In this document: piece after piece, positions 53,378 through 55,214 of the stretch | How the letters are laid out: the number at the start of each line of letters is the position of its first letter | Position numbering within the stretch: the first letter of the stretch is position 1 | Source: an uncultured Alphaproteobacteria bacterium | GTDB lineage: Bacteria > Pseudomonadota > Alphaproteobacteria > CAAGCB01 > CAG-977 | Length of the DNA: 64,000 nucleotides | NCBI GenBank assembly: GCA_944390195.1 | Contig: CALXOZ010000003.1 | Location: forward strand, 1 to 64,000 | Direction of reading: 5' to 3' | Position numbers and translations under genes: made by a program | The notes under the pieces: model-generated | Database searches by the model: none | Seen by the model: only the letters and a program-made list of their open reading frames with translations | What the model was told of the DNA's origin: nothing

Positions 53378-54460
53378 TTATTTTTTTATCGTTTGTTCCG
53401 ATGACTTGCATTCTTTGCAAATTAATTGACAATTCCCTGATTCTATATGTCCTCCATTCGACCAAGAAAGAATTGTTTCACTGTCCATTTGTTCCATTTT
53501 AAAATGTCTTTGACATTTCGGGCAAATGCCCTGCTGGCGGTGATAAGCTTCTTGTTCCATGATTTTTGAAAAAGCCCTGATGCACAAGTTTTCCTCGTTC
53601 CCCGAAAACAAGTAGTTGTAAATTCCTTTTTTATTTGTAACATCTTGATCCCGCATTAAAACATCAAGACGTTCTTCAAAATCATGCACAGGTTTCTGAC
53701 AATATTTGTTATAAAGTTGACCCCATTCAACCCCCTTCATTTCTTTACGATAATACGGAAACGTGTTGCGTACCCAATTGATGACGTTTTCAAAATACAA
53801 CCATAACTCGTCGGCATTCGGGTCGTCTTGATGAACAGCCATGTACTCTTCGATTTCTCCGAAATTGATCCATTTCAGAACGGTTTCAAGATAATCCTGT
53901 TTTATCGGAGAACCTGTCATGTAACGACTTGCCATACTATAGGCAGCACAATTTTTTTGACTGAAATAACGCTTGGCATCCGTCAACCATTTCCCCGGAT
54001 AAAGGGCGTTTCGTAATTCTTGAGCTGTTAAAGGTGTGCTTGACGTATTAATCCTTTTAAACCATTTCAAACGTTCTTCTTTATCCCCATCACATACATA
54101 AACGATCAGAAGATAATCTAAGATCATATTTTGCTCTTTCATCTTTAAATCGTAAAAGTACTTCCCATTTACAGAAAAGTTTCCTTGAACGTATTCACAA
54201 ATACTGATAAGGCGTTGTTGACCGTCAACCACATCAAATGTCGAGTTCTTGTTTTTCGACCAGTAAAAGGTGTTTAAAGGAAATCCTTCTTTTATTGTTT
54301 TAATGACGGCATTTCTTTTTTGTTCGTCATAGGCAAAAATGCGTTGATATTTCCTGCCGATATATAATCGACCGTGATAAGCTGTAATGCCGTTTTCCTG
54401 ATGATTTTTATAACCGTCAACGATCTTGCGAACCGGTATTTTTTGTTGTGTAATCTTCAT
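53378..54460 (-). CDS. DUF262-domain protein with degenerate HNH-like C-terminus
   Basis: DUF262 (ParB/sulfiredoxin-like fold) proteins include the GmrS half of the type IV restriction enzyme GmrSD and other defence nucleases. The 360 residues begin MKITQQKIPVRKIVDGYK and contain the DUF262 signature VVDGQQRLISICEYVQGNF (about residues 92-110). The C-terminus has two CxxC pairs (CPKC and CKEC) as in HNH zinc folds, but where relatives read DH (the catalytic His), it has DSETI, and the last Asn is replaced too. Nuclease activity is therefore doubtful. The start is chosen because AGGTGG lies upstream; the frame continues 56 codons into the structured RNA with no ribosome binding site. Confidence 0.75.
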   Translation of the reverse strand: MKITQQKIPVRKIVDGYKNHQENGITAYHGRLYIGRKYQRIFAYDEQKRNAVIKTIKEGFPLNTFYWSKNKNSTFDVVDGQQRLISICEYVQGNFSVNGKYFYDLKMKEQNMILDYLLIVYVCDGDKEERLKWFKRINTSSTPLTAQELRNALYPGKWLTDAKRYFSQKNCAAYSMASRYMTGSPIKQDYLETVLKWINFGEIEEYMAVHQDDPNADELWLYFENVINWVRNTFPYYRKEMKGVEWGQLYNKYCQKPVHDFEERLDVLMRDQDVTNKKGIYNYLFSGNEENLCIRAFSKIMEQEAYHRQQGICPKCQRHFKMEQMDSETILSWSNGGHIESGNCQLICKECKSSEQTIKK

Positions 54461-54490
54461 TGGATCCACCTGTTTTTGTCTTATTGAAAA

Positions 54491-54795
54491 GAAACTCCGA
54501 AGACCGCTTTGCAGGCGGTCGGGGAGTTCATAAATCAACTGTTTCCAATGATCCTTAAGACCTTTAAAATTCCGATATAATTCATATCGGGACTCTTGAA
54601 CATACGTCAAAAGCTCCCCGACCATCATTTAAGACATCGGGGATATTTCCCGTTTTTGCGATAAGCAAAACGGTTACGACGCATATCTTGCGCCGGGAAA
54701 CAGTAGAGCTTATGAAGGCTCCGCGTCTGCTAAGACGCTGTTCCGTATGGATTTATTCCATCTGGACCTATTGTTTAGGGTACGAAATCTCAAAA
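54491..54795 (-). ncRNA. Unidentified structured RNA / attenuator in the DUF262 leader
   Basis: Read on the minus strand, about 300 bases hold a chain of strong hairpins: ATGGA-ATAAA-TCCAT, a junction closed by GGAACAG / CTGTTTCC with GCGTCT-TAGC-AGACGC inside, CGGCGCA / TGCGTCG, and CCGTTTTGC / GCAAAAACGG. Then come segments that pair in competition: TCCCCGA (54637-54643) with 54615-54621, GGTCGGGGAG (54614-54623) with CTCCCCGACC (54517-54526, perfect), and the latter with 54493-54507 to form a terminator followed by TTTCTTTTC, about 30 bases before the ATG. This is riboswitch or attenuator logic. It matches no family I know. Confidence 0.6.
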
Positions 54796-54884
54796 AATAA
54801 AACAAGGGTGAGTTTTAAAAGAATCACAAAATGATTGAAAAAAGGCAAATATTATTACATAATGTTATTTTTATGGAGGTTTCA

Positions 54885-55214
54885 ATGCCACAAAAAACAA
54901 ACACCGTTAAAGTATGTTCTAAAAAATCAAAAAAAAATCAGACTTTTTCATCGGAAGAAATGAGTCAATATCTTATTTCTACAGTTAAAGAAGTGATAGA
55001 AATATCGCGTACCCCCGTCGCTGTTTTAGATAAAAACGGTACGCCAACCGGAGCTGTGGAATATCAATCTGCGACGGTTTTAAAAGCGTGTGAATTAATG
55101 GCGAAGTTGATGGGGGCTATTAAGGAGACGGAAAACAAAGGTGTCGCGGTTCAAATAGTTTCCTATCGGGAGGAAAGTGAAACAAATGATCCTGATGGGA
55201 ACAAATCATCATAG
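54885..55214 (+). CDS. Small protein of unknown function, possible small-terminase relative
   Basis: The 109 residues start MPQKTNTVKVCSKKSKKNQT; TGGAGG is placed correctly before this ATG, while an upstream start at 54831 has none. The middle is helical, and GAVEYQSATVLKACELMAKLMG resembles the C-terminal part of some phage small terminase subunits, where a helix with a Leu-rich ELLGKxLG motif follows. The match is weak. It is divergent from the DUF262 gene and followed by a terminator shared with rpmG. Confidence 0.5.
   Translation: MPQKTNTVKVCSKKSKKNQTFSSEEMSQYLISTVKEVIEISRTPVAVLDKNGTPTGAVEYQSATVLKACELMAKLMGAIKETENKGVAVQIVSYREESETNDPDGNKSS

Follow-up and report, generated by a model that had tools for sequence, protein, structure and literature searches.

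The window considered here is a stretch of 64,000 nucleotides from an uncultured alphaproteobacterium. On its minus strand, a gene coding for a DUF262 protein is preceded by a conserved RNA at 54500-54739, ahead of which a 5' hairpin and a probable promoter lie at 54742-54782. The initial annotation had proposed that this region is a new attenuator or riboswitch, in which four segments pair as 1-2, 2-3 and 3-4, and these segments are indeed found on that strand, at the position it gave. The features are as follows, from 5' to 3' along the RNA.

54777-54782, minus: probable -10 element TACCCT of the leader's own promoter (inferred, unmapped)
54742-54766, minus: P0, a variable 5' hairpin (45 family copies examined)
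54723-54738, minus: P1 hairpin, GCGUCU..AGACGC (double-sided change at 6 of 6 pairs; 98% of cells paired)
54706-54721, minus: P2 hairpin, GAGC..GCUC, whose loop contains the PK1 5' strand (54710-54716)
54697-54704, minus: PK2 5' strand ACUGUUUC, partner of GAAACAGU at 54538-54545 (permutation z -36)
54677-54696, minus: P3 hairpin (model helix 4; double-sided change at 5 of 5 pairs)
54650-54673, minus: P4 hairpin, CCGUUUUGC..GCAAAAACGG (visible in the alignment; absent from compact relatives)
54636-54645, minus: strand 1, UAUCCCCGAU, which pairs with strand 2 (model helix 5)
54614-54623, minus: strand 2, GGUCGGGGAG, common to the 1-2 and 2-3 pairings
54597-54613, minus: P6 5' strand CUUUUGACG and near-invariant core GUAUGUUCA (model helix 6; core columns invariant)
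54566-54594, minus: P7 hairpin (model helix 7)
54553-54568, minus: conserved UUUUAAAGG and P6 3' strand GGUCUUAAGG (alignment and helix 6)
54534-54552, minus: P8, AUCA..UGAU, whose loop contains the PK2 3' strand at 54538-54545 (PK2 permutation test)
54527-54533, minus: PK1 3' strand UUAUGAA, of the helix UUCAUAA/UUAUGAA (model helix 3; partner-permutation z -27)
54517-54527, minus: strand 3, ACUCCCCGACC (CUCCCCGACC at 54517-54526), the switching strand, complementary to strands 2 and 4
54486-54526, minus: terminator-like hairpin CUCCCCGACCGC..GCGGUCUUCGGAG followed by UUUCUUUUC, strand 3 with strand 4 (model helix 8)
54466-54471, minus: probable ribosome-binding site AGGUGG, 5 nt ahead of the AUG at 54460 (read from sequence)
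53378-54460, minus: downstream gene, 360 amino acids, GmrSD_N (DUF262) plus HNH-like (Pfam, PADLOC)

Adjoining the leader on the plus strand is a divergent 127-amino-acid ORF (54831-55214), for which a Pfam search gave no match.

The window region is predicted to fold with an energy of -118.8 kcal/mol, compared with -79.1 +/- 5.5 for dinucleotide shuffles (z = -7.2, 0 of 100). The duplex of strands 1 and 2 is calculated at -14.6 kcal/mol and that of strands 2 and 3, with 10 perfect pairs, at -20.6 kcal/mol; strand 3 together with its 5' neighbor pairs with GCGGUCUUCGGAGUUUC at -18.8 kcal/mol. Additional hairpins lie upstream of these strands, and the three-way junction that they were said to include is better described as P1 to P4 plus the long-range helices PK1 and PK2. 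Farther 5', P0 is a hairpin with z < -1.5 in 80% of the 45 copies (mean z -3.0), each with a different sequence, and TAnnnT elements in family copies are clustered 39-44 nt ahead of P1. The proposed terminator exists as a GC-rich hairpin and a U-rich tail that extends to about 54486. However, the U-tract of the window copy is interrupted and weak, and a simple terminator scan did not flag it. In most relatives, by contrast, a clean GCCGCC-loop-GGCGGUUUU hairpin forms the 3' end.

A BLAST search with the RNA found copies in 10 of 96 related genomes, with at least seven copies in the richest, and nhmmer recovered 44 full copies of about 240 nt each from the fetched loci. We built one covariance model (R1) from 43 copies and another (R2) from a compact, GC-rich form. 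With R1, the window's own genome contains two strong copies (218 and 168 bits) and five weak ones. In the bacterial family to which it belongs, 11 of the 12 genomes have the RNA; 70 copies score above 59 bits, and the highest number in one genome is 17-18. Within samples of the class, R1 detected copies in 21 of 289 genomes, and R2 in 53 of 385 genomes (44 of 276 genera); the genomes are mostly draft. The compact form also matched 259-274 plasmid records, mostly conjugative, and those inspected are assigned to Alphaproteobacteria. A first pattern scan of viral sequences gave no match; a scan for the compact form found five IMG/VR viral contigs, and two phage records also carry the RNA. The window copy itself has no phage or plasmid match. 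Matches in a phylum-wide search were confined to the same class, where the number of other classes in the sample is undetermined.

Of the 46 pairs in the model alignment (104 copies), 44 show a double-sided change in one copy or more, and 95.6% of cells pair. The 44 include all seven pairs of P6. The covariation score is 0.538, as compared with 0.215 for shuffled alignments (0 of 500) and 0.08-0.11 when partners are slid. Because an alignment fitted to a model favors its structure, we also used a permutation test, in which the partner strand within a copy was set against partner strands taken from the other copies. Segment boundaries were taken from the model alignment, and PK2 lies outside the model. 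Over all copies, own partners were the more complementary for PK1 (z -27), PK2 (z -36), 2-3 (z -14) and 1-2 (z -7.6), with 0 of 5000 permutations in each case. Relatedness among copies is not fully removed by the permutation and shuffle tests and inflates their statistics, an effect that is lessened by testing within groups. Within the window's family, the corresponding z values are -13.0, -21.4, -7.2 and -0.4, and within the compact group they are -12.5, -15.0, -5.5 and -2.0. By these comparisons of sequences, the PK1, PK2 and 2-3 pairings are firmly supported. For 1-2, the pairing is conserved, but it hardly varies within groups, and its covariation is convincing only across subfamilies. Covariation among homologues, which the initial annotation had named as evidence in favor, is strong: complementarity is copy-specific for 2-3 and 3-4, and 1-2 covaries with the restriction just given. 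With the same restriction, the leader has the mutually exclusive, covarying helices required of a two-state element. RNAalifold, when given the compact alignment, chose the 2-3 pairing unprompted.

The alignment also places near-invariant columns, GUAUGUYCA and CUAAAGG, inside the compact fold. The otherwise near-invariant core AUGUCCAGG reads AUGCAACAGG in five compact copies (L147, L149, L150, L159 and L160), a variant that could correspond to a different ligand. Long, near-identical segments are common to otherwise different copies (L061/L065, L063/L066 and L076/L078), as if by gene conversion or recombination between them.

The RNA had been suggested to belong to no known family, and our searches agree. 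At the gathering threshold, Rfam 15 contains no family that matches over the element in the window or in 40 further loci from relatives. A permissive Rfam search of the region returned only sub-threshold, chance-level matches (best E 0.79, far below gathering). Likewise, tRNA and tmRNA can be rejected for the window on the basis of ARAGORN and Rfam. This is an RNA family of Alphaproteobacteria that Rfam 15 does not hold. A search of the literature, mostly without subscription papers and preprints, yielded no description of the RNA, although such an absence is not proof. A survey of Agrobacterium noncoding RNAs does not mention traM or TraR, and a TraM paper does not contain the terms untranslated, leader, antisense or small RNA.

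Placement ahead of a DUF262 gene, as originally noted, holds at the window, but the family as a whole is multicopy and precedes many genes. The protein encoded in the window matches Pfam GmrSD_N (1.1e-20), with HNH below the cut-off, and PADLOC REase_II (6.1e-109). A search of contigs for DUF262-HNH enzymes gave relatives in Treponema only. Conservation of the RNA with this enzyme was considered and rejected, in that homologues of the enzyme usually follow an EcoRI-type methylase; the RNA belongs to the operon and not to the DUF262 enzyme. At the window, the enzyme has no adjoining methylase of this type, though its relatives form methylase-enzyme pairs, and a search for one elsewhere in the genome returned none, which does not prove its absence. 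The enzyme may be modification-dependent or an orphan.

Restriction genes behind other copies in the window's family comprise operons of an EcoRI-type methylase with DUF262, a type III methylase, a C5 methylase, and type ISP/IIG enzymes. Of the two strong copies in the window's genome, the second lies ahead of HmaA of the Hma defense system (6e-226). Further targets in this family are PDC-S26 candidates, an autotransporter, a pilin-like protein, a PEGA lipoprotein, acyltransferases, glycosyltransferases and other surface proteins. In other alphaproteobacteria, the RNA precedes genes for an outer-membrane barrel protein, PDC-S11 (1.4e-96), SNase, pilins, glycosyltransferases and lipoproteins. 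Plasmid copies lie ahead of traM, of genes for DUF2285 proteins and for HTH regulators, and of unnamed genes that in turn lie upstream of RES and AHL-synthase genes. In one Ti plasmid (L157), a ProQ/FinO-family RNA-binding gene lies directly ahead of the traM leader. At a PADLOC threshold of 1e-30 or lower, 11 of 39 leader genes match defense families, as compared with none of the 40 genes that flank the RNA on its opposite side (one-sided Fisher test, p about 2e-4). The figure of 11 is a sum over nonoverlapping PADLOC families, and the p value is subject to the caveat that 4 of the 11 are mutually homologous.

The RNA lies directly 5' of genes, on the sense strand, at a regular distance and in many copies, as expected of a cis leader. 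Strand 3 is a median of 43.5 nt from the start codon, so there is little room for a second promoter, and on annotated plasmids roughly 220-245 nt separate the 5' end of the RNA from the start of the following gene. In addition, strand 3 is more complementary to the 34 nt ahead of its own start codon than to swapped sequences (z -5.2, 0 of 5000). Examples are CUGAACAU/AUGUUCAG in L085, AAAUCCC/GGGAUUU in L105, 10 pairs in L143, and CCAACCC/GGGUUGG ahead of traM in an Agrobacterium leader (L151). By group, the signal is z -4.1 for AT-rich copies and a marginal z -1.9 for GC-rich copies (158 of 5000), perhaps because several start codons, chosen by rule, are guesses. Strand 4 of the AT-rich copies usually coincides with the 3' terminator arm, which doubles as ribosome-binding site in the methylase operons. 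Compact copies have no simple terminator and end near the ribosome-binding site. Compact copies (for example, L127, L141, L143, L146 and L148) also carry another conserved hairpin, GCGGGGGCGYACCGC, 3' of the RNA and ahead of the start codon.

We consider it probable that the 5' leader is a two-state, riboswitch-like cis switch in which a common signal, bound at the core, shifts the balance; that it is transcribed, the direction of control and the ligand are inferred. Judged by its sequence statistics, which support the structure, the competing pairings, the leader position and the gene set, a cis leader switch is well supported. In the first predicted state, strand 2 (GGUCGGGGAG), together with PK1 and PK2, would capture strand 3 in a compact, pseudoknotted fold, and the gene would be read. 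In the second, strand 2 would pair with strand 1, releasing strand 3 to pair with strand 4. In AT-rich copies, where strand 4 is the terminator arm, transcription would then stop; in GC-rich plasmid copies, where it is the ribosome-binding region, translation would be blocked; and in some copies both outcomes may be possible. Switching itself, and the choice of the first state as ON, are likewise inferences. A common intracellular signal would bind the near-invariant core, GUAUGUYCA / CUAAAGG, and tip the balance, and this signal would most likely be a small molecule, such as a second messenger. On structural grounds alone, a ligand-binding riboswitch is likely, because a compact, pseudoknotted fold surrounds the near-invariant core. 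The original proposal of an attenuator or riboswitch is supported, and those of its named refutations that could be tested did not occur. Counting against the riboswitch-like reading are the weak 1-2 covariation within subfamilies, the marginal strand 3 signal of the GC-rich group, the interrupted U-tract at the window, and target genes that are more varied than those of most metabolite riboswitches.

The main rival to a small-molecule ligand is a protein or RNA effector, such that the leader would be a cis switch worked by a trans-acting antiterminator, translational regulator or small RNA. We regard this as unlikely, although the conserved core could equally well be a protein site, and a multicopy leader with heterogeneous surface and defense targets resembles the regulons of RfaH or LoaP. 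However, the core consists of internal-loop nucleotides in a compact, pseudoknotted fold, which is the usual anatomy of an aptamer, and no partner protein has been identified. The RfaH ops/JUMPstart element, LoaP and EAR RNA represent processive-antitermination leaders of operons for surface polysaccharides, adhesins and mobile elements. Unlike these leaders, the present RNA contains within itself a terminator or Shine-Dalgarno sequence that is complementary to an internal strand, and no protein partner is known for it.

The preferred riboswitch-like mechanism works in a mode like that of known riboswitches and attenuators, and its gene set (immunity, surface and conjugation control) is unusual. 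Riboswitches for c-di-GMP and cAMP-GMP (GEMM-I and c-di-GMP-II) occur in multiple copies as leaders of pili, adhesin and surface genes, and use terminators or Shine-Dalgarno sequestration. The RNA described here is similarly multicopy within genomes and precedes surface genes. In contrast to GEMM-I and c-di-GMP-II, it has no Rfam match, has a different fold with two long-range pseudoknot helices, and is also found ahead of restriction, Hma and conjugation-regulator genes. Alphaproteobacterial leader RNAs include SAM-II (metA), serC, speF, suhB and ybhL. Our RNA is, like these, a cis element of the same bacterial class, but it matches none of them in Rfam, and its genes differ. Alphaproteobacterial cis leader RNAs have been described that serve as a comparison set (PMC1273637).

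Little is understood of how bacteria time the expression of restriction systems, of surface receptors and of the brakes on conjugation. Genes of all three groups lie behind one RNA, which is multicopy within genomes and also occurs on conjugative plasmids (the Agrobacterium traM leader among them), and one signal may control defense, cell-surface and plasmid-transfer regulator genes together. Because one RNA precedes all three, the question of joint expression is directly testable, and if the signal is found, the regulon can be read. With hundreds of natural sequences and a clear structure, the RNA is a suitable target for a ligand search. Only tentatively do we suggest that it is a new alphaproteobacterial riboswitch class in which the ligand, a phage- or density-linked second messenger, signals that the cell is invaded or crowded, and which jointly sets the expression of immune systems (restriction among them), phage-receptor surface structures and plasmid-transfer repressors, with the core variants AUGUCCAGG and AUGCAACAGG recognizing different ligands.

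Three further explanations fare worse than a cis switch worked by a protein or small RNA. That the element is a gene for a trans-acting small RNA, with its own promoter and terminator and merely upstream of these genes, is very improbable. A promoter-like element and a terminator do flank the AT-rich copies. However, there are 70 copies above 59 bits in 12 genomes, those examined lie at a short, regular distance ahead of a gene, strand 3 is complementary to the start-codon region of its own copy, and the compact copies end near the ribosome-binding site without a simple terminator. We give practically no credence to a translation-coupled attenuator with a leader peptide that begins at the conserved AUG: GGGGAG does occur about 10 nt ahead of this near-invariant AUG, but among the 73 frames that open there, 60 reach a stop after 4-42 codons, 8 run into the gene out of frame and 5 are in frame with it, and no length is conserved. 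Our RNA shares with tryptophan-type attenuators the pairing of strands as 1-2, 2-3 and 3-4, but, unlike them, it has no conserved leader peptide; lacking a conserved short ORF, an attenuator of this type is rejected for practical purposes. It is scarcely credible that the element is a mobile or recombination element with an incidental RNA-like fold, since compensatory, double-sided changes occur at 44 of 46 pairs and the copies showed neither shared terminal repeats nor a shared transposase, even though copies have segments in common, several lie at contig ends and one is ahead of a serine-recombinase-like ORF.

Separately, a sequence of about 90 nt (GATATGGTTTTAAAGCG...) located 3' of the RNA is common to L043 (G001:C23), L074 (G001:C6) and L048 (G006:C19). 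Two of these three loci are at contig ends, and the third is ahead of the serine-recombinase-like ORF, an arrangement that hints at an invertible or shuffling locus.
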